NCBI GenBank assembly: GCA_900473795.1
Contig: UCMT01000011.1
Span: 29,534-93,533, forward strand
DNA: 64,000 nucleotides
Source: Hyphomicrobiales bacterium
GTDB lineage: Bacteria; Pseudomonadota; Alphaproteobacteria; Rhizobiales; Rhizobiaceae
Reading direction: 5' to 3'
Shown piece by piece: positions 1,844 to 11,641 of this stretch (positions are counted from its first letter, which is position 1; each line of letters begins with the position of its first letter). Below the pieces are notes generated by a model. That model was not told where the DNA came from, ran no database searches, and saw only the letters and a list, made by a program, of their open reading frames with translations. Position numbers and translations under genes: made by a program.

Positions 1844-2281
1844 TTAGAGTTCGTTGCCGTTGTCATCGCTGATGACACCACCAAGTTTGCTGCGCAGTTT
1901 CCGCAACACGTCCAAGACGAATCCGTCTTCGTTGAAATGGCGGCCGCTTAGGTCAACCTGGATGCAAAACGCCTGACTGGCAGCGTCCAAATTGAAATAT
2001 GCAATCGGGTCATCGTGTTGCGAGTTCAGCAGCCATGGGTCTGCACCGCTTGGAAGCATCTCAGAAAGCACATTTCGGACCAGCATTTGCTCGCCCGTTC
2101 CTTCCAAGAAATAGCTCTTCAATTCCAGCCTCCACGATGACCCAGCGTACGATGGAGGTGTTGTTATGAGGTTACGGCCAACAAACGCAACTTCTCGCCG
2201 TTGCGAAATCGACGTGATTATCACCAATCGACATTGGTCCCCGCCCATCAGGTTCAGGTTCGGGCAAGCCTGTTCACTCAT
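1844..2281 (-). CDS. Hypothetical protein, 145 aa
   Basis: Soluble protein of unknown function without signal peptide, membrane segment or motif I recognise. I placed the start at the ATG at 2281 because an AGGA Shine-Dalgarno lies just upstream; a longer reading to 2347 has no better site. Base composition looks less GC-rich than the flanking catabolic genes. It is transcribed towards the chemoreceptor gene and away from the giant repeat gene, with about 160 bp between the two divergent starts. A role as a small accessory or immunity-like protein is possible but only a guess. Confidence 0.55.
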   Translation of the reverse strand: MSEQACPNLNLMGGDQCRLVIITSISQRREVAFVGRNLITTPPSYAGSSWRLELKSYFLEGTGEQMLVRNVLSEMLPSGADPWLLNSQHDDPIAYFNLDAASQAFCIQVDLSGRHFNEDGFVLDVLRKLRSKLGGVISDDNGNEL

Positions 2282-2442
2282 AAATTGTTCCTGTGAGCGG
2301 CAACGCTTGATTTCGATACCCGTCTCTGCGTTAGGGGCAGGTGGCATATGGGCGGCTGTCGAGGATCTGGCTCACATTTTTCCCGGCGGCTGGCGGCCGG
2401 GAAAAGGATCCAAGCGGTGGGATAATACAAAGGGTTTCATTT

Positions 2443-5400
2443 ATGACTTCGACCATTCCTTCGCTCAGCGTCAGCCAGATCCGATCTCTCGCGACGACGG
2501 CAATTGCAGCCTGGACCACCGAAGACATTGCTGCGCTGTCCACAACGCAGATCAAGGCCCTTTCATCGACCCAGGTCGCAGCCCTCGAGACGGAGGACCT
2601 TGCGGCCTTTTCGACGACGCAGATCCGCGCGATATCAGCGGCGGCCATCATCAGCCTAAGCCTGGACCAACTGGCCGTTCTTACGACGGACAAGATCGAA
2701 AGCCTGATAACGACCCAGGTCGCCGCCCTCAGCACCAAGCAGGTCGGCGGGCTGGGTTCGGCGCAGGTCGAAGCCTTGACCTCCTCGCAGGTTGCCGCCT
2801 TGAGCTCGGCGCAGCTCCAGGCTCTGACCACCGATGAAATAGTGACCCTGTCGACGGCCGACATTGCGGCGATCACCTCGACTGCGATAACGGGGCTTTC
2901 CGCCGACAATATTGCGGCGCTCAGTACCGCCCAGGCGGCAGTTCTGAAGACGAGCCAGATCGCGGCGTTGAAGACGACCCAGGTCGCAGCCTTGACATCC
3001 GGGCAGCTCGCGGTGCTGACCACGTCGCAAATCGGCGCCTTGAGTTCGGTACAAATCAAGGTTCTGTCCAGTGACAGCATCGCCGCTCTCTCCACCAGCC
3101 AGATTGCAGCGCTGAGCGCGAAGGCGATCGCGGGACTGACCTCCACGCAGATCGTTGCCTTGTCGACCGATCAGGCGGAGGCCTTGACGTCATCGCAGGT
3201 GGCAGCCCTCAGCGCGACGCAAATTGCCGCTTTGGGCGCCGACGACGTGGTGACTTTTTCGACCGCCGAAATCGCGGCGATTACCTCGGCTGCCATAACC
3301 GGACTGTCCACCGGTAGCATCGCGGCACTCAGCTCTGCCCAAGCGGCGGCCATGAAGACGAGCCAGATCGCGGCGCTGAAGACGAACCATATCGCGGCCC
3401 TGACGTCCGTGCAGGTCGCAGCGCTGACCACATCGCAGATCGGCGCCCTGAGTTCGGCGCAAGTCACGGTGCTGTCCAGCGACCGAATGGCCGCTCTCAC
3501 CACGGACCAGATTGCCGCCCTCAACACCAAGGCGATTTCAGGCCTGACCTCTGCGCAGATCGGCGCCTTGTCGACCGATCAGGCTGCGGCCCTGACGTCT
3601 GCCCTTGTCGCAGCCATGAACTCGACCCAGATCGCTGCACTGGACGCAGACGACATTGCAGCCTTCTCGACGGCCGATATCGCGGCGATCAGCTCGTCTG
3701 CCATAACAGGGCTTTCCACCGACAGTGTTGCTGCCCTCAGCACCGCCCAGGCAGCAGCGCTGAAGACGAGCCAGGTTGCGGTGTTGAAGACGGGCCAGAT
3801 CGTCGCCCTGACGTCCGAGCAGCTTGCAGCGCTGACCACCTCGCAGTTCAGCGCCCTGACTTCGGCGCAAGTTAAGGTTCTCTCGAGCGACAGTATCGCG
3901 GCTCTCTCCACCGGCCAGGTCGCCGCCCTGAGCACGAAGGCGGTCACGGGTTTGACATCGACGCAGGTCGATGCCTTGTCCATCGACCAGGTCGAGGCTC
4001 TGACATCATCCCAGGTTGCGAGCCTCAGCTCGACGCAGATTTCCGTCTTGAGCGCGGCAGATCTGGCAACCTTCTCGACAGCCGACATCGCGGCGATCAG
4101 TTCGTCTGCCATAACGGGACTTTCCACCGGGAATATCGCAGCACTCAGCCCCGAACAGACGGTAGCCCTGAAGACGGGTCAGATCGTGGCGTTGAAGACA
4201 AGCCAGATCGCTGCGTTGACGTCGGAGCAGATTGCAGCCCTGACCACGTCGCAATTCAGTGCCCTCAGTTCGCTACAGGTCACGGCCCTGTCGAGCGACA
4301 GCATCGCGTCGCTCGACACTGACCAGATTGCTGCCCTGAGCACCAAGGCGATTGCGGGTCTTTCCTCCACGCAGATCGATGCCTTGTCCACCGCGCAGGT
4401 CGAGGCTTTGAGCTCGTCCCAGGTGGCGCACCTCAGCGCGACGCAGATTGGCGCTTTGAGCGCGGCAGACTTGGCGACCTTCTCGACGTCCGAGGTGGCG
4501 GCGATCACCTCGACCGCCCTGTCTGGACTATCCAGCGACACTATCGCGGCCCTCAGCACCGAGCAGGCTGCGGCCATGAAGACGAGCCAGATCGCGGCGC
4601 TGAAGACCAGCCTTGTCGCAGCCCTGACATCAGAGCAGATCGCGGCCCTGACCACGTTGCAGGTCTCCGCCCTGAGTTCGGCACAAATAGCGGTCCTGCC
4701 CAACGACAGCATCGGTGCTCTCGCCACGGACCAGATTGCCGCCCTGAGCACCAAGGCGATCGCAGGTTTGACCGCGACGCAGATCAACGCCTTTTCCACC
4801 GACCAGGCTGCGGCTCTGACCTCTGCGCTTGTCGGCGCCATGAGCTCGACCCAGATCGCTGCACTCTCCTCCGATGACATTGCGACCTTCTCGACGGCCG
4901 ACATAGCAGCAATCAGCGCGACGGCCCTGTCCGGACTTTCGACCAGCAACATCGCAATACTCAGTGCTGACCAGGCGGCGGCCTTGACGGCAAGCCAGGT
5001 GGCAGCGCTGTCTTCCAGCCAGATCGCGGCACTGACGAGCGACCAGATCGCCGCGCTGACCACGGCGCAGTTCGGCGCCCTGGGTTCGGCGCAGATCGCG
5101 GCTCTGTCCAACGACAACATCGCCGCGCTCGCCACGGAGCAGATCGCCGCCCTCAGCACAAAGGCAGTCGCGGGCCTGAGCTCCGCGCATATGGGCGCCT
5201 TGTCCACCGAACAGATCGAGGCTTTGACATCGACGCAGGTTGCGAGCCTCAGCTCGACGCAAATTGCCGCTTTGGGCACAGAAGATCTGGCGACTTTCTC
5301 GACCGCCGACATCGCGGCGATCACCTCATCTGCTCTATCCGGGCTTTCCACCGGCAATATCGCCGCCCTCAGCGCTGAGCAGGCGGCCGCCCTGACGACA

Positions 5401-7497
5401 AGCCAGATGGCGGCTCTGGCCTCCAACCAGATCGCCTCGCTGACGTCCGGGCAGATCGCGGCGCTGACGACGTCGCAGATCGGTGCATTGAGCTCGACTG
5501 CAATATCGGGGCTGTCCACGGCCAACATCGCAGCACTTTCCGGCGACCAGATCGCCGCGTTGAGCACACAGGCGGTCGCAGGCTTGACGACCACGCAGAT
5601 CGAGGCCCTGAGCACCGATCAGCTCGGCGTCCTGTCCTCGGCGCAAATCGGAGCGCTCGGCAAGGCGCAGATTGCCGTTCTGAGCGCCGAGGATCTGGCA
5701 ATCTTTTCCAGTGACGAGATCGCGGCGATCAGCTCGTCTGCCATATCCGGATTGTCCGTCAGCAACATTGCAGCACTCAGCCCCGATCAGGCCGCAGCCC
5801 TGACGACGGCCCAGTTGGCAGCGCTGTCCTCCAGCCAGATCGGGGCGCTGGATTCCAGCCAGATCGCCAGCTTGACCACGTCGCAGATCGCCGCCTTGAG
5901 CTCCGCGCAGGTCACGGCCCTGTCTCACGACGGCGTCGCCGCCCTTACCACGAACCAGATTGTCGCCCTGAGCACCACGGCGGTTGGCGGTTTGACCTCC
6001 GCCCAGATCGATGCCTTGTCCACCGCACAGGTCGAAGCTCTGTCATCCTCTCAGGTGGCGGGCCTCGGCTCGACGCAAATCGCCGCTTTGAGCACGGCAG
6101 ATCTCGCTACCTTCTCGACCTCCGAGATCGCGGCGATCAGCTCGTCTGCCCTATCCGGACTTTCCACCGGCAATATTGCGACCCTCAGCTCCGATCAGAT
6201 TGCAGCCCTGACGGCAAGCCAGGTGGCTGCGTTGTCGTCCGGGCAGGTCGCGGCGCTGGGTACCACCCAGCTCGGTAGTTTGACGACGTCGCAGATCGAG
6301 GCGCTGAGTTCGGCGCAGGTCGCCGCGTTGTCCAGTGACAGCATCGGCGCTCTCTCCACGGCCCAGATTGCCGCGCTCAGCACCAAAGCCCTCACGGGTT
6401 TGACCTCCAGGCAGATCGATGCCTTGTCGACCGCACAGGTCGAGGCCTTGACCTCCTCGCAGGTTGCGAGCCTCAGCTCAACGCAAATTGGCGCTCTGAC
6501 CACGGGAGACGTGGCGACCCTCTCGACAGCCGAGATCGCGGCGATCAGCTCGTCTGCCATTTCCGCGCTTTCCACCGGCAATATCGCCGCCCTCAACTCC
6601 GAGCAGATCGCGGCCCTGACGACAAGCCAGGTGGCAGCGTTGTCATCCAGCCAGGTCGAAGCCGCCCAGATCGGCAACTTGACCACATCGCAGATTGGCG
6701 CCCTGAGCTCGACGGCCATATCGGGGCTGTCAACGTCTACGGTCGCTGCGCTCTCCACCTCGCAGATCGGCGCCCTGAGCACAAAGGCGATCGGGGGCTT
6801 GACCTCGGCGCAGATCGCTGCGTTGTCAACCGGCCAGCTCGACTCTCTGTCTTCTACACAGGTTGCCTCATTGGGATCGTCGCAGTTGGCGGCACTCTCG
6901 AGCGAGGACATGGCGACCTTCTCGACCGCCGATATCGCGGCGATCAGCTCGTCTGCCATATCGGGATTGTCCACCAGCAATATCGCGGCCCTCAGCCCCG
7001 AGCAGGCGGCAGCCCTGACGACAAGCCAGATACCGGCGCTGACCTACAATCAGATCAAGGCCCTGAGTTCCAGCCAGATCGTCGACTTGACCACGGAACA
7101 GATCGGCGCCCTGAACGCCATACAACTTGCAGCGCTAAGCACGAGCACGATCGCGGCACTTTCCACCAACCAGATCGCCGCTCTGAACTCGAAGGCGATC
7201 GTCGGTCTGACCACCGCGCAGATCAGCGCCCTGACCACCGAACAGGTGGAGGCGTTGACGGCGTCCCAGGTCGGAGGACTGAGCTCGGCGCAAATCGCGG
7301 CGCTAACCACTGAGGACCTCGCGACCTTCTCGACAAGCGATATCGCGTCGATCAGCACGTCTGCCCTTTTCGGACTGTCGACGGAGGATATTTCGAGCCT
7401 GTCGAGCAACCAGATATACGCCATCACAACGACCCAGATGGAAGCACTGGATGCCGAGCGAATTGCTGCGGTCGTTTCAGCCTACCAGTCGTTCTGA
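2443..7497 (+). CDS. Giant octapeptide-repeat protein, 1684 aa
   Basis: The whole product, from the initiator to seven residues before the end, parses into about 211 octads of consensus [ST][ST]x[Q/D][I/V]x[A/G]L, for example TTSQIGAL. Octads are arranged in super-repeats of 17 (136 residues, 408 bp): the octad STADIAAI or a close variant starts at nt 2851, 3259, 3667, 4075, 4483, 4891, 5299, 5707, 6115, 6523, 6922 and 7330. The start at 2443 is exactly one period before 2851, and AAGGG precedes that ATG. I see no signal peptide, no non-repeat domain, no cysteine and one tryptophan. S/T-x-x-Q resembles a helix capping box, so a solenoid of short helices is conceivable. Alternatives are a surface adhesin or a type I secreted fibre. 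Function unknown. Confidence 0.9.
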   Translation: MTSTIPSLSVSQIRSLATTAIAAWTTEDIAALSTTQIKALSSTQVAALETEDLAAFSTTQIRAISAAAIISLSLDQLAVLTTDKIESLITTQVAALSTKQVGGLGSAQVEALTSSQVAALSSAQLQALTTDEIVTLSTADIAAITSTAITGLSADNIAALSTAQAAVLKTSQIAALKTTQVAALTSGQLAVLTTSQIGALSSVQIKVLSSDSIAALSTSQIAALSAKAIAGLTSTQIVALSTDQAEALTSSQVAALSATQIAALGADDVVTFSTAEIAAITSAAITGLSTGSIAALSSAQAAAMKTSQIAALKTNHIAALTSVQVAALTTSQIGALSSAQVTVLSSDRMAALTTDQIAALNTKAISGLTSAQIGALSTDQAAALTSALVAAMNSTQIAALDADDIAAFSTADIAAISSSAITGLSTDSVAALSTAQAAALKTSQVAVLKTGQIVALTSEQLAALTTSQFSALTSAQVKVLSSDSIAALSTGQVAALSTKAVTGLTSTQVDALSIDQVEALTSSQVASLSSTQISVLSAADLATFSTADIAAISSSAITGLSTGNIAALSPEQTVALKTGQIVALKTSQIAALTSEQIAALTTSQFSALSSLQVTALSSDSIASLDTDQIAALSTKAIAGLSSTQIDALSTAQVEALSSSQVAHLSATQIGALSAADLATFSTSEVAAITSTALSGLSSDTIAALSTEQAAAMKTSQIAALKTSLVAALTSEQIAALTTLQVSALSSAQIAVLPNDSIGALATDQIAALSTKAIAGLTATQINAFSTDQAAALTSALVGAMSSTQIAALSSDDIATFSTADIAAISATALSGLSTSNIAILSADQAAALTASQVAALSSSQIAALTSDQIAALTTAQFGALGSAQIAALSNDNIAALATEQIAALSTKAVAGLSSAHMGALSTEQIEALTSTQVASLSSTQIAALGTEDLATFSTADIAAITSSALSGLSTGNIAALSAEQAAALTTSQMAALASNQIASLTSGQIAALTTSQIGALSSTAISGLSTANIAALSGDQIAALSTQAVAGLTTTQIEALSTDQLGVLSSAQIGALGKAQIAVLSAEDLAIFSSDEIAAISSSAISGLSVSNIAALSPDQAAALTTAQLAALSSSQIGALDSSQIASLTTSQIAALSSAQVTALSHDGVAALTTNQIVALSTTAVGGLTSAQIDALSTAQVEALSSSQVAGLGSTQIAALSTADLATFSTSEIAAISSSALSGLSTGNIATLSSDQIAALTASQVAALSSGQVAALGTTQLGSLTTSQIEALSSAQVAALSSDSIGALSTAQIAALSTKALTGLTSRQIDALSTAQVEALTSSQVASLSSTQIGALTTGDVATLSTAEIAAISSSAISALSTGNIAALNSEQIAALTTSQVAALSSSQVEAAQIGNLTTSQIGALSSTAISGLSTSTVAALSTSQIGALSTKAIGGLTSAQIAALSTGQLDSLSSTQVASLGSSQLAALSSEDMATFSTADIAAISSSAISGLSTSNIAALSPEQAAALTTSQIPALTYNQIKALSSSQIVDLTTEQIGALNAIQLAALSTSTIAALSTNQIAALNSKAIVGLTTAQISALTTEQVEALTASQVGGLSSAQIAALTTEDLATFSTSDIASISTSALFGLSTEDISSLSSNQIYAITTTQMEALDAERIAAVVSAYQSF
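2443..7497 (+). repeat. Tandem 408-bp coding repeats, 12 units plus a part
   Basis: Direct tandem repeats of 408 bp (17 octad codon blocks of 24 bp) fill the gene. All intervals between marker octads are exactly 408 bp except 6523 to 6922, which is 399 bp because an octad near 6655-6665 has lost three codons. Units are diverged at synonymous and some non-synonymous sites, the first unit most strongly. Columns within the unit are distinguishable: an octad starting STKA occurs once per unit, and KTSQ octads fall at fixed positions in the early units. Confidence 0.92.
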
Positions 7498-7705: not shown

Positions 7706-8794
7706 TCATCTCAACCGTAGGCCCTGGTCATCAAAGACAAAGCACCTGCCTGCCGTCATCGAAAGCGCGACGGTCGACCCATTCTTTGGGTCAAAATCCG
7801 TGCGGTGCTCAATCGTGATGGTCTGGCCGTCAGCCAGCCTGCAATAAACATAGCGCGTGCTGCCGAGATATTCGCTGAATTCCACGATGGCCGGCATACC
7901 TTGCTCACAGGATTCGGATAGCTGCAGGTGTTCCGGCCGGACGCCGAAGGTGACTGTCGTGTTTCCGGCAAAATTCGCCTGGAGTGCTGGCGCTTCGAGC
8001 GCGGTATCTCCTATGCGGATTCTGTCTCGGTCTACCCATGTGGCCTGCAAAAGATTCATCCGCGGCGAGCCGATAAACCCAGCAACAAAGGTATTGGCCG
8101 GGTCCTCATAGACTTCGCGCGGTGTCCCAACCTGTTCGATACGGCCGTCGCGCAGGATGACGATGCGGTCGGCGAGGGTCATCGCTTCGGTCTGGTCATG
8201 GGTCACGTAGATCATCGTGTTCCCCAGTTCCCGGTGGAGCCGCGCGATCTCGATGCGCATGGAAACACGCAACTCCGCATCAAGGTTGGAAAGCGGCTCG
8301 TCGAAGAGAAAGACGTCCGGCTTTCGCACGATCGCCCGTCCGATCGCCACGCGCTGGCGCTGGCCGCCGGAGAGCTGGCCCGGACGCCTGTCAAGCAGAT
8401 GGGCGATCTTCAGGATGGCGGAAGCCTGGCTGACCCGGCGGTCGATCTCGGCTGCGTCCGTGCGGGACATCGTCAGGCCGAAGGCGAGGTTGTCGCGCAC
8501 ACTCATGTGCGGATAGAGCGCGTAGGACTGGAACACCATCGCGATGCCGCGATCGGAGGGGTCAAGATCGGTCACGTCCCGGCCCTTGATCGCAATCTCC
8601 CCGTCAGTCACCTCCTCGAGCCCGGCGATCATGCGCAACAATGTCGACTTGCCGCACCCCGAGGGCCCCACGAAGATGACGAATTCCCCTTCGTCAATCG
8701 CAAGATCGATGCCGTGGATCACATCGAGGCTGCCGAAGCTCTTGCGCACACCGGTCAGCGCGACGCTCGCGCAGGGCGGTTCTATCGTCATCAT
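7706..8794 (-). CDS. Sugar ABC transporter ATP-binding protein (MalK/UgpC type)
   Basis: Cytoplasmic ATPase that powers the two permeases of this operon. A 362-aa protein with Walker A GPSGCGKST, Q-loop, signature LSGGQ, Walker B LFDEP, switch histidine in THDQTEAM, and a C-terminal TOBE-type regulatory region of about 120 residues, typical of the carbohydrate (CUT1) subclass. I start it at ATG 8794: AGGAA lies five bases upstream and overlaps the stop of the upstream GH127 gene; 8791 is an alternative. It is the last gene of the operon. Specificity is inferred from the neighbouring GH127 enzyme. Confidence 0.92.
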   Translation of the reverse strand: MMTIEPPCASVALTGVRKSFGSLDVIHGIDLAIDEGEFVIFVGPSGCGKSTLLRMIAGLEEVTDGEIAIKGRDVTDLDPSDRGIAMVFQSYALYPHMSVRDNLAFGLTMSRTDAAEIDRRVSQASAILKIAHLLDRRPGQLSGGQRQRVAIGRAIVRKPDVFLFDEPLSNLDAELRVSMRIEIARLHRELGNTMIYVTHDQTEAMTLADRIVILRDGRIEQVGTPREVYEDPANTFVAGFIGSPRMNLLQATWVDRDRIRIGDTALEAPALQANFAGNTTVTFGVRPEHLQLSESCEQGMPAIVEFSEYLGSTRYVYCRLADGQTITIEHRTDFDPKNGSTVALSMTAGRCFVFDDQGLRLR

Positions 8795-8801
8795 CCGGTT
8801 C

Positions 8802-10751
8802 CTATTTCTCGGCCTGCAGCCAGACAAGCATGGCGCCCGGCGCCCGGTTGTCCCAGAGATGGTAGGGCACGAGCCGGGCGGTGGCTGACGTCCTCTCTGC
8901 CCGTCTCGCGAGATAGAGCGCGCCGCCGAAACCCGACGTCTCTTCCCGCTTCACTGGAAGATCGACGGCGACGGCGCCGTTGAGGTCGGCGAGAGCGACT
9001 TCCTGCCTCTCCTTTAGTTCATTCGGCACGATAATCGCACTGAGATCCGCGCCATTGTCCGTCTCCTCGACACAATAAACGAGCGGGCCGCGCATCAGGG
9101 CAACGCGGCCGGCATCCTGCCGCACCTTGGGGTTGGCATATTGCGGGCGCAGCGCAAGCGGCAGATCGAGATCGATCCGGTCGCCGTTTCGCCAGTCACG
9201 CTCGATGCGGGCATAGCCATCCGCAGCGACGGCGGTGACCTCGACGACCTCGCCGTTCAGGCGGAGTTTTGCCTCGCCTTCGGCCCATTCCGGAATGCGC
9301 AGCGATATCGCGAAGCGAGCCGTCCCTTCGAGGCTGACAGTGAAGCGTATCGCGCCGTCCCATGGGTAGCGGGTCTCCTGTGCCAGCGTCACTATCGTGC
9401 CCGCGATCGTCGTCTTCGCGCTGCCTTCTCCATAAAGGTGAACGGCGATTTCGTCTGCGGAGGCGGCGTACATGTACGAGCCGACAGAGGCCAGCAATCG
9501 TGCGATGTTGGGCGGGCAGCACGGGCATCTGTGCCAGGTCCAGCGGTGGTGGCGCCCGGCGCTTTCCAGCGGGTTTTCATAGAAGAAGGTCTTGCCGTCG
9601 AGCGAAAGGCCCGACATGGCGCCGTTGTAGAGGGCCTGCTCCATGATATCGGCGTAGCGTCGGTTCGGTCCGCGTCCGAGCATGCGGCTTGCCCAGAAGA
9701 CAAGCCCGACGGAGGCGCAGGTCTCTGCATAGGCGCTCTCGTTAGGCAGGTCGTAGTAGTCTGTGAAGCCCTCGTTCGCGGCCGCCGGGCCGATGCCGCC
9801 GGTGACGTACATCTGCTTTGCGGTCAGGTCGTCCCACAGCGTGTCGAGCGCAGCGGTCAGGCTGTCGTCGCTGTACTCGGTGGCGATATCCGCCATGCCG
9901 GAATAGAGATACATGGCGCGCACGGCATGCCCCACGACCTTGGTCTGCTCGCGGACCGGCAGATGGGCCTGGTTGTATTCATAGGTGCCAAAGACGAAGT
10001 TCTTCGGATCGCGTCCGTCATTGCGGGCCTCGCTGTCGAAGTAGTGCGGCTCTGTTCCGCGCTCGTCGATGAAGAATTTGGCGAGGTCCAGGTACTGCTG
10101 GTTGCCCGTCACGCGGGCAAGCTTTACCAGCGCCAGCTCGATCTCTTCATGTCCGCAATAGCCGCGCCTCTGTCCGGCGCCATCACCGAAGACCGCGAGC
10201 ATGTGATCGACGTAGCGGCACATGACGTCCAGCAGCTTGCGCTTCCCGGTTGCCTGGAAATAGGCAACCGCTGCCTCGATCAGATGTCCGGCGCAATAGA
10301 GCTCATGCGTATCGCGCAGGTTGGTCCACTCGCGGCCCGGGACGATGCGCAGATACCATGAATTGAGGTAGCCATCCGGGCGCTGGAGTTTTTCGTAGAG
10401 ATCGATGATCGCGTCGATCCGCGCCTCCAGCACTGGATTCGGTTGGCGATAAAGCGAATACGCCGCCGTTTCGATCGATTTGCCGAAGTCGCTGTCCCAG
10501 AACATCTGGGTGGAGACCATCGCCTTGTGCTCGGTCGCCGGCATTGTCGGGCTCATGCTGTGCGGCGGAATGACGACGCCGGGGCTCGGCTCATCCGGAT
10601 CGATCTGCTTCAACATGCCCGCCTGGATGCAGCGATCAAGGAGGATGGTCGCGGTCGACTCGCAGATTGCGTCCTGGCGTTCGCCGAAAAGGCCGCCGAG
10701 CCGGACGCTTGGAACGGGAAGGGGGCGGAACTGGCGGTCTTTCTTCATCAT
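8802..10751 (-). CDS. GH127-family beta-L-arabinofuranosidase
   Basis: Predicted to release L-arabinofuranose from beta-linked arabino-oligosaccharides such as those on hydroxyproline-rich plant glycoproteins. The 649-aa length matches Bifidobacterium HypBA1. Its metal/catalytic set is recognisable: Glu343 and Cys345 in YAETC, and Cys411-Cys412 in CPCCPPN, corresponding to Glu338, Cys340, Cys417 and Cys418 of HypBA1. There is no signal peptide, so hydrolysis is cytoplasmic after uptake by the flanking ABC transporter. The start at 10751 (or 10748) follows the permease stop at 10778; longer in-frame readings run into the permease gene. Family call is strong; the exact linkage is inferred. Confidence 0.9.
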   Translation of the reverse strand: MMKKDRQFRPLPVPSVRLGGLFGERQDAICESTATILLDRCIQAGMLKQIDPDEPSPGVVIPPHSMSPTMPATEHKAMVSTQMFWDSDFGKSIETAAYSLYRQPNPVLEARIDAIIDLYEKLQRPDGYLNSWYLRIVPGREWTNLRDTHELYCAGHLIEAAVAYFQATGKRKLLDVMCRYVDHMLAVFGDGAGQRRGYCGHEEIELALVKLARVTGNQQYLDLAKFFIDERGTEPHYFDSEARNDGRDPKNFVFGTYEYNQAHLPVREQTKVVGHAVRAMYLYSGMADIATEYSDDSLTAALDTLWDDLTAKQMYVTGGIGPAAANEGFTDYYDLPNESAYAETCASVGLVFWASRMLGRGPNRRYADIMEQALYNGAMSGLSLDGKTFFYENPLESAGRHHRWTWHRCPCCPPNIARLLASVGSYMYAASADEIAVHLYGEGSAKTTIAGTIVTLAQETRYPWDGAIRFTVSLEGTARFAISLRIPEWAEGEAKLRLNGEVVEVTAVAADGYARIERDWRNGDRIDLDLPLALRPQYANPKVRQDAGRVALMRGPLVYCVEETDNGADLSAIIVPNELKERQEVALADLNGAVAVDLPVKREETSGFGGALYLARRAERTSATARLVPYHLWDNRAPGAMLVWLQAEK

Positions 10752-10777
10752 GGTGTATCCGGTTCTCGTTTCAGGGA

Positions 10778-11641
10778 TCATTTCACGGCGCCGGCCATCA
10801 GGCCGCGCATGTAGTAGCGTTGCAGAAGCAGGAATACGAAGAGGCAGGGGATGACCATGACGGTGACTCCCGCCTGAACGGCGCCCCAATTGATCGCGCC
10901 CAGCCGACCGGCGCGAACGGCGGTCATCAGCACCGGCAGCGTATAGTTCTCGTTGCTCGACAGAAGCACGAGTGCTGCGAGAAACTCGTTCCACGCGTTC
11001 AGGAACGCAAAAATCGAGACGGTCGCCACGCCGGGCATAACAAGCGGAAGCAGAACCCGCACGAGGAGTTTCAGGTCGCGCGCGCCATCGATGCGCGCGG
11101 CTTCTTCGATCTCCTTCGGGACAGCGTCGAAGGCGTTGCGCATCATGAAGACCGAGAAGGGAAGCTGCAGGGTTACGTAGATCAGCATCAGCCCGAAAAG
11201 CGAATTGTTGAGCCCGAGCTTGGCCAGGATGATGAAAAGCGGCGTCAAGATGGACTGGAAGGGGATCATCAGCGTCGCGATGATGAGCACGAACAGGACG
11301 TTCTTGAGTGGAAAGCGGTAGCGGGAGAAGCCGTAGCCCGCGAGCAAGCTGACGATGACCGTTATTATGACGGTACCGAGCGATACGACCACCGAATTGA
11401 TCGTGTGCTGCCAGACCCCCGAACCGAAGCCGTCAAGCGCGCGATAGGCGTCGATGCTTAAGCCCGAGACCGGCCACGGCGGCAGGGGCGGCTGGCTGTT
11501 TTCGGCATTCGGCCGAAAGGAGGCGAGGAAGCTGACGAGGAACGGTGCCAGAAAGAAAAAGCCGGTTCCAATCCCGACGCCGTGATAGGCGGCGCGGTTC
11601 CATCGCGCCCGGCGCGCCCGAATGTCTCGACCCGTTGTCAT
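10778..11641 (-). CDS. Sugar ABC transporter permease (MalG type)
   Basis: Inner-membrane subunit, 287 aa, with about six membrane segments and the EAA loop (EEAARIDGARDLKLL) that docks the ATPase. The ATG at 11641 overlaps the stop of the upstream MalF-type gene by four bases (ATGA), which fixes the start and implies translational coupling; the open frame to 12157 is non-coding extension. It forms the channel with the gene at 11638-12552. C-terminal RYYMRGLMAGAVK is typical of MalG-like CUT1 permeases. Confidence 0.92.
   Translation of the reverse strand: MTTGRDIRARRARWNRAAYHGVGIGTGFFFLAPFLVSFLASFRPNAENSQPPLPPWPVSGLSIDAYRALDGFGSGVWQHTINSVVVSLGTVIITVIVSLLAGYGFSRYRFPLKNVLFVLIIATLMIPFQSILTPLFIILAKLGLNNSLFGLMLIYVTLQLPFSVFMMRNAFDAVPKEIEEAARIDGARDLKLLVRVLLPLVMPGVATVSIFAFLNAWNEFLAALVLLSSNENYTLPVLMTAVRAGRLGAINWGAVQAGVTVMVIPCLFVFLLLQRYYMRGLMAGAVK

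Follow-up and report, generated by a model that had tools for sequence, protein, structure and literature searches.

A long ALTTAQ octad-repeat protein of a Rhizobiaceae bacterium, predicted to form a short-helix solenoid and likely O-glycosylated by a GT41 enzyme encoded beside a second ALTTAQ gene

The window, by which we mean the whole stretch of 64,000 nucleotides that was analysed, carries near its beginning a repeat gene that appears in the open reading frame list as a single open frame of 1684 codons and a stop (Table 1). Its product contains 367 Ala, 288 Ser, 209 Thr, 206 Leu, 140 Ile and 129 Gln residues, 25 of the 1684 residues are Asn, and cysteine is absent, as the original prediction had stated. 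That prediction also held the protein to be made of octapeptides, and this is indeed the case, since there are about 205 of them and the self-identity of the protein is 0.385 at a lag of 8 residues as compared with 0.05-0.14 at lags up to 33 other than the multiples of 8, with autocorrelation peaks at lags 8, 16, 24 and 32. The octads do not, however, fill the product without a break as had been claimed, but run nearly throughout with a single slip of the frame near residue 1406 (...SSSQVEAAQIGNL...). The strongest long lag is 136 residues or 17 octads in the protein (self-identity 0.598) and 408 bp in the DNA (0.675), and the proposed 136-residue unit therefore stands, whereas its repetition 12 times in exact 408-bp steps does not, since the motif positions give a shorter first segment followed by nine steps of 136 residues, one of 133 residues (399 bp) and a last one of 136, that is ten 408-bp steps and one 399-bp step along the array. 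Within the octads Ser/Thr occurs about equally often in position 3 (0.85) and in position 2 (0.83).

Table 1. Features of the repeat gene and its surroundings, in window coordinates
Feature	Position	Strand	Basis
ALTTAQ-repeat protein gene	2443..7497	+	open frame; PF20080 1098.9 bits, 73 stretches; dN/dS 0.18-0.25
N-terminal 136 residues, conserved start MTSTIPSLSVSQIRSL...IAAWTTEDIAALSTTQIKALSS, octads from the outset	2443..2850	+	common to homologs
Array of 136-residue (17-octad) super-repeats	2851..7329	+	autocorrelation, motif positions; top spectral period 3.40 octads
133-residue unit with the sole octad-frame slip	6523..6921	+	motif spacing, residues 1359 to 1492
Three modelled units, 408 residues, about 51 predicted helices	3667..4890	+	AlphaFold2 mean pLDDT 96.5, pTM 0.83
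C-terminal segment ending ...LSSNQIYAITTTQMEALDAERIAAVVSAYQSF	7330..7494	+	similar in many homologs
167-residue ORF just upstream of the repeat gene	1844..2347	-	
MalK-type ABC ATPase and GH127 beta-L-arabinofuranosidase, downstream	7706..10994	-	

The N-terminus is common to the homologs, which begin with a matching MTSTIPSLS-type start (MTSTIPSLS...WTTED) and thereby support the ATG at 2443, and over residues 1-72 the ungapped identity to nine homologs is 0.57-0.82 as compared with 0.49-0.63 for the middle of the protein in a gapped alignment. An end like ...VISAYQSF is found in many homologs, and the ungapped identity of the last 56 residues to nine homologs is 0.14-0.75; the proteins of loci L062, L066 and L075 have instead a low-complexity linker rich in Ser, Thr and Ala, followed by a short tail. 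Coding on the reverse strand was considered and rejected, since many stops interrupt the frame read there; shorter open frames do occur on that strand. The gene evolves as a protein-coding gene under purifying selection, as dN/dS is 0.18-0.25 in the three pairwise comparisons that the window gene and its two orthologs, from the further genomes G008 and G017, allow. All three proteins are exactly 1684 residues long at silent-site divergences of 0.15-0.33, so that the unit count has stayed constant as silent changes accumulated, and the array itself must be old, since eight internal units compared in 28 pairs differ by a mean dN of 0.22 and a mean dS of 0.77. The neighbours of the gene are a chemotaxis receptor, an ORF of unknown kind and the MalK-type ABC ATPase, and a Pfam search with the 167-residue upstream ORF gave no match at E 0.01. 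At two other loci, L048 and L055, the ALTTAQ gene is followed by what by eye is an ABC-type ATPase ORF and by a 748-residue ORF, which in L048 is a GH2 glycosidase.

The original prediction could not match the fold to a known repeat class with certainty, but the protein in fact belongs by sequence to the Pfam family PF20080 (ALTTAQ_rpt), at 1098.9 bits, the cut-off being 26.4, and with 73 matched stretches, and is furthermore close to the 120-residue chain of PDB entry 9zem, 'HeliScrew4' (E 4.6e-18, the best PDB match by sequence). Compared by name and partial sequence, 9zem has octads of the same kind, but 11 of the 13 that are shown have Pro at position 3. A search of NCBIfam gave one chance-level match. 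The bacterium has two ALTTAQ genes, that of the window and one on contig C66, and the search for octads in relatives found PF20080 in 13 of 61 genomes (E 1e-3); in samples of the class and the phylum it is found in 6 of 337 and 21 of 398 genomes, respectively (E 1e-6), the own genome being counted in all three samples, and the distribution of the family is thus patchy. Caulobacter vibrioides, used as a control genome, has matches to both PF20080 and PF13844. A 337-residue ALTTAQ frame in G003 (L044, 8252-9262) is devoid of the usual start, adjoins an ORF that by eye is adenylate-cyclase-like, and looks like a truncated copy, and in G769 both ALTTAQ genes (L072 and L130) as well as the GT41 gene are in broken frames, be it by decay or by sequencing error. 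No function for the family was found in the Pfam name and matches or in the open-access literature, a scope outside which subscription papers and preprints fall; there, no paper came up for HeliScrew or ALTTAQ, and PF20080 returned papers that, judged by title, are unrelated.

Three units were modelled with AlphaFold2 from an alignment of the query and 31 rows, 3 of which were other stretches of the window protein, and 406 of the 408 modelled residues have a pLDDT of at least 90. The model, which covers 408 of the 1684 residues, is free of strands and consists of about 51 helices, each octad forming one of 4-6 residues, so the very short helix per octad that had been proposed is also what AlphaFold2 predicts, and the outcome of disorder only is not. 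The Ser/Thr of position 2 is placed just ahead of each predicted helix and positions 3-7 are mostly helical, which agrees with the earlier idea of N-capping. The short helices would presumably stack into a single long solenoid. Weak sequence matches to leucine-rich repeats were found, but a fold of that kind is rejected since the 408-residue model has helices only. Searches with Foldseek and VIA-align revealed no convincing known fold, with mesothelin and armadillo proteins appearing at uninformative levels; 9zem does not figure in the rows listed, an absence that carries no weight. The best Foldseek match is mesothelin (7ued, E 8.1e-4), which is described as 24 short helices in a nine-layered spiral with repeats of 27-37 residues (PMC10035497), and which on that description is the nearest likeness in kind to the present model.

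The super-repeat is not of the same length in all homologs. A lag of 17 octads is found in most Rhizobiaceae, one of 10 in L062, L065, L066 and L075, one of 24 in G235, G331 and others and one of 7 in G713, while 27 octads come first or second in some proteins, and all of these are close to whole multiples of 3.4 octads (7/2, 10/3, 17/5, 24/7 and 27/8). When residue use along the octads is resolved into a spectrum, the tallest peak falls at 3.39-3.44 octads in five of seven sets of proteins, and in the other two the peak near 3.4 is second, behind 8.47 in the proteins of genomes lacking the GT41 ortholog described below and behind 2.0 in the genomes of family f211. With the f211 set left out, the strongest period in the shuffle run was 3.38-3.45 octads in five of six sets and the observed band power was reached by 0 of 200 shuffles in each of the six, but shuffling also destroys duplications and so leaves these uncontrolled, which makes the proteins G100 and L090 the clean cases, as they have hardly any super-repeat and yet peak at 3.42 and 3.45 octads. 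We infer that 3.4 octads (27 residues) take the solenoid once around its superhelix, in which case the 136-residue unit would be five turns.

Open frames within 8.5 kb of 39 ALTTAQ loci were clustered, and in the 30 largest clusters, which were formed without gene models and few of which were tested against Pfam, a protein of about 680 residues recurs at 14 loci and one of 385 residues at 10. The first of these, as encoded next to the C66 gene, is a GT41 glycosyltransferase with tetratricopeptide repeats (PF13844, 242.9 bits against a cut-off of 25, as well as TPR matches), which aligns with XcOGT (E 2e-76) and also with OGT of the 110-kDa kind, and weakly with HMW1C (E 2e-5). Counting as orthologs near-full-length matches of at least 640 bits, the next best match being 343, it is present in 11 of the 13 PF20080 genomes as opposed to none of the 48 PF20080-free ones among the same 61 genomes (Fisher p 1.9e-10, kinship ignored), the two exceptions with ALTTAQ genes being G005 and G023. 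More distant GT41 matches (E 1e-20) occur in 32 of the 61 genomes, 19 of them without ALTTAQ. Furthermore, all 18 further named genomes that were chosen for a homolog of the window protein, L058 and L073 not being counted again, have the ortholog, which in G769 is split into two broken pieces. Of the 29 genomes thus assembled, 27 carry it no more than about 1.5 kb away from an ALTTAQ frame, with several of these frames truncated by contig ends (L117, L123, L128 and others) and that of L130 broken, and in the other two, G008 and G017, it stands beside a short ALTTAQ remnant of few octads (23 model positions). The neighbourhoods show several gene orders.

A similar linkage is seen in more distant genomes, GT41 and ALTTAQ genes being at most about 11 kb apart in 9 of 17 (G263, G235, G331, G713, G730, G485, G432, G422 and G461). 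In five more (G100, G451, G468, G554 and G496) the GT41 gene is not counted as near, several of them having short contigs and G496 carrying both matches on one contig some 24 kb apart, and the remaining three (G750, G567 and G201) have ALTTAQ but no GT41 at all. The f211 genomes G451, G468, G485 and G496 contain single frames of 2462-3781 residues with several tandem GT41 domains, for example at L105. No linkage to GT41 is seen for the window gene, the enzyme of its own genome being that beside the C66 gene. G008 and G017 are informative in this respect, since the one full ALTTAQ gene of each is the ortholog of the window gene, while their GT41 is full length with dN/dS of 0.06-0.10. If the lost neighbour had been the sole substrate, decay of the enzyme would be expected in these two genomes, and its retention makes the window gene a likely GT41 substrate.

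The 385-residue protein, as found beside the C66 gene, is a UDP-galactopyranose mutase (PF03275, 262.7 bits), and a mutase is found near GT41 in 12 of 13 further regions. Its dN/dS in G008 and G017 is 0.03-0.06. It is less constantly tied to ALTTAQ than GT41 is, since among the 11 sample genomes with the GT41 ortholog it lies beside GT41 in seven, elsewhere in three and is absent from G046, and since mutases 72-74% identical occur in two ALTTAQ-free genomes. Between GT41 and mutase of L071 (10569-12867) there are a methyltransferase-like ORF (PF13578) and a 444-residue ORF with a match to PF12248, possibly further glycan enzymes.

A candidate site for the sugar emerges from the octads. Ser/Thr is frequent at position 2 everywhere (0.50-0.91 per frame, mostly 0.65-0.85), whereas position 3 differs with the presence of the enzyme, as its Ser/Thr frequency has a median of 0.72 in the 32 proteins from genomes with GT41 (range 0.32-0.90) and is 0.26, 0.27, 0.32 and 0.38 in four proteins of the ortholog-lacking genomes G750, G005, G023 and again G005 (Mann-Whitney p 0.002, frames of up to 800 residues and distant genomes left out), Ala taking the place of Ser/Thr in all four and Pro also in three. 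Frames with masked stretches (L053) or failing the octad filter were left out of the counts, and G567 and G201 gave no row, so that the ortholog-lacking group amounts to four proteins from three genomes; position 2 also differs slightly between the groups (median 0.79 versus 0.67-0.73, p 0.008). In 13 more regions with ALTTAQ frames beside GT41, position 3 is 0.72-0.96 in ten and 0.55, 0.41-0.50 and 0.33-0.49 in the other three; the value of 0.55 is that of L131, G761 has values of 0.35 and 0.41-0.50 despite an intact linked GT41, and G769 (0.32-0.49) has GT41 and ALTTAQ frames that are both broken. According to a tree of 41 proteins of at least 1000 residues with a recognised start, at most two independent events within Rhizobiaceae led to low position-3 values. 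One of the low clades includes L064 from the GT41-bearing G761, and L041 (0.38) is placed, with support of 0.7 or less, beside C66-type proteins, its five neighbours in the tree coming from GT41-bearing genomes and having values of 0.85-0.90. Ser-Thr swaps make up 6 of 26 position-3 differences between the window protein and its G008 ortholog and 27 of 76 between L048 and L055, where the enzyme is present, but 4 of 98 between L040 and L056, which are similarly diverged and where the ortholog is absent, in part because fewer Ser/Thr are available there. L040 is nevertheless predicted to adopt a similar fold (pLDDT 96.0), and since it is predicted to fold equally well the position-3 hydroxyl seems unneeded for the fold, although 13 of the 16 rows in the alignment for that model came from GT41-bearing genomes and may bias it towards the same model. 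In G235, position 3 is 0.95 in the GT41-linked protein and 0.29 in the unlinked L090. Position 4 is Ser/Thr at 0.43-0.92 in frames of G263, G331, G713 and the f211 genomes and in the C3 frame of G235. The pattern of residues marks position 3 as a candidate for the chief acceptor of a GT41 sugar.

Taken together we consider it probable that the window protein is a long octad solenoid whose Ser/Thr residues are O-glycosylated by the GT41 enzyme encoded beside the second ALTTAQ gene. Its roughly 205 octads would form one long solenoid of 4-6-residue helices, the superhelix completing a turn every 3.4 octads, so that a duplicated unit of 17 octads drops back in phase. GT41 would use the protein as its substrate in the cytoplasm, before any export, and the acceptors would chiefly be position 3, the first residue of the helix, amounting to about 173 Ser/Thr (0.85 of 204 octads), while the mutase that is linked in most Rhizobiaceae would supply a galactofuranose donor for the glycan. 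Helix packing gives a rise of about 1 nm per turn as an estimate, and with this rise the product would be a stiff sugar-coated rod of about 60 turns and some 60 nm in length, most likely displayed outside the cell.

It is with respect to location that the strongest alternative arises, namely that the solenoid stays inside the cell as a scaffold, where it either receives its sugars in the cytoplasm or is no more than a binding partner of the GT41 TPRs, which we regard as a real though somewhat doubtful possibility. Indeed no hydrophobic signal was seen by eye in the shared N-terminus, and inspection by eye of the 30 neighbour clusters, in flanks of up to 8.5 kb, revealed no recognisable exporter. 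One ALTTAQ gene (L064) does lie beside an export-like gene set (M50/HlyD, HlyD, HlyD and OEP), but its M50/HlyD protein, the only member searched, is matched at E 1e-20 in six genomes of the 61 but in none of the 13 that carry ALTTAQ, and the operon was therefore rejected as an ALTTAQ exporter and its position taken as a coincidence. Glycosylation within the cytoplasm would moreover have precedents in HMW1C and FlmG (PMC3983070; PMC7591256). Against a scaffold stands the fact that ALTTAQ repeats elsewhere are joined to secretion-type domains, which argues for a location outside the cell. Among the 120 matches listed of 310, at least 22 distant ALTTAQ proteins have PF05860 and at least 10 have PF00353, which we take to be the haemagglutination and RTX domains, respectively. 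The linked enzyme for a galactofuranose donor would likewise point to surface-type sugars. Neither domain is among the Pfam matches of the window protein, which is thus not classed as an HMW1-type two-partner adhesin, by the lack of PF05860 and with 25 Asn as possible acceptors, or as an RTX/type I secreted adhesin by PF00353, and its own export or surface display would be suggested by these relatives and the presumed sugars.

We find it unlikely that the rod is unglycosylated and that GT41 and mutase serve LPS or some other protein, the linkage being that of a surface-polysaccharide island. Such a reading would account for the ALTTAQ genomes without the GT41 ortholog or without any GT41, for the mutases found without ALTTAQ and for the poor site-by-site conservation of position 3 in close orthologs, but it is in poor agreement with an adjoining ALTTAQ frame or remnant in 29 of 29 ortholog-bearing genomes and in several gene orders, with the absence of the ortholog from all 48 ALTTAQ-free relatives, with the similar linkage in distant genomes and with the resemblance of the enzyme to protein O-GlcNAc transferases. 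That the Ser/Thr of position 3 reflect homogenisation of the repeats or codon bias and the 3.4 period internal duplication is distinctly improbable, for although the units are duplicated and a strong 17/5 harmonic could come from duplication alone, which the shuffles leave uncontrolled, the same period accompanies lags of 10, 17 and 24 octads and two proteins with hardly any super-repeat, the copies are old by their far diverged silent sites, and ortholog-lacking homologs lose position 3 while position 2 stays near 0.7.

The favoured reading, a solenoid glycosylated by its partner GT41, has parallels in two described systems. HMW1C of Haemophilus is a cytoplasmic GT41-family enzyme dedicated to the large adhesin HMW1 (PMC3983070) and thus likewise pairs such a glycosyltransferase with one large protein, but it transfers hexoses onto Asn and has no TPR fold, whereas the enzyme described here has TPRs and an OGT-like domain and its presumed substrate has few Asn and no two-partner secretion domain. 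FlmG of Caulobacter is a cytoplasmic O-glycosyltransferase whose N-terminal TPR domain binds flagellin and whose modification of it is independent of export (PMC7591256). It shares with the present enzyme a TPR domain, a GT-B-type glycosyltransferase and O-linkage, but its substrate is flagellin rather than an ALTTAQ protein as linked here, and it is not called GT41 anywhere in the text of that paper. By analogy the window protein and its enzyme would work like HMW1C/HMW1 or FlmG/flagellin while being a member of neither. A pairing of ALTTAQ with GT41 was not found in open-access titles and abstract openings, subscription papers and preprints lying outside this scope, nor do the PF20080 name and matches mention a 3.4-octad period, a partner enzyme or a candidate sugar site. 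What would be new beyond the described repeat family is a period that would explain the super-repeats, together with an OGT-like partner and the octad position that is its candidate acceptor.

In a wider sense, we judge the chances to be about even that this is a new class of bacterial O-glycoprotein, in which a rigid alpha-helical screw with 3.4 eight-residue helices per turn presents, at the first position of its helices, a regular lattice of Ser/Thr to a co-evolved OGT-like enzyme, in effect a mucin on a solenoid rather than on a disordered chain. If so, the screw would dictate the super-repeat lengths of 7, 10, 17, 24 and 27 octads, since a duplication stays in phase only when it spans a nearly whole number of turns, and protein geometry would account for the length of the super-repeat in the DNA (408 bp). 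Bacterial OGT-like enzymes would gain a dedicated substrate with more than 100 regularly spaced sites, and such a solenoid could usefully serve to carry ordered glycans, given its known pitch and the single addressable hydroxyl on each helix. For the ALTTAQ repeats themselves, a family for which no function was found gains a testable partner and acceptor site.
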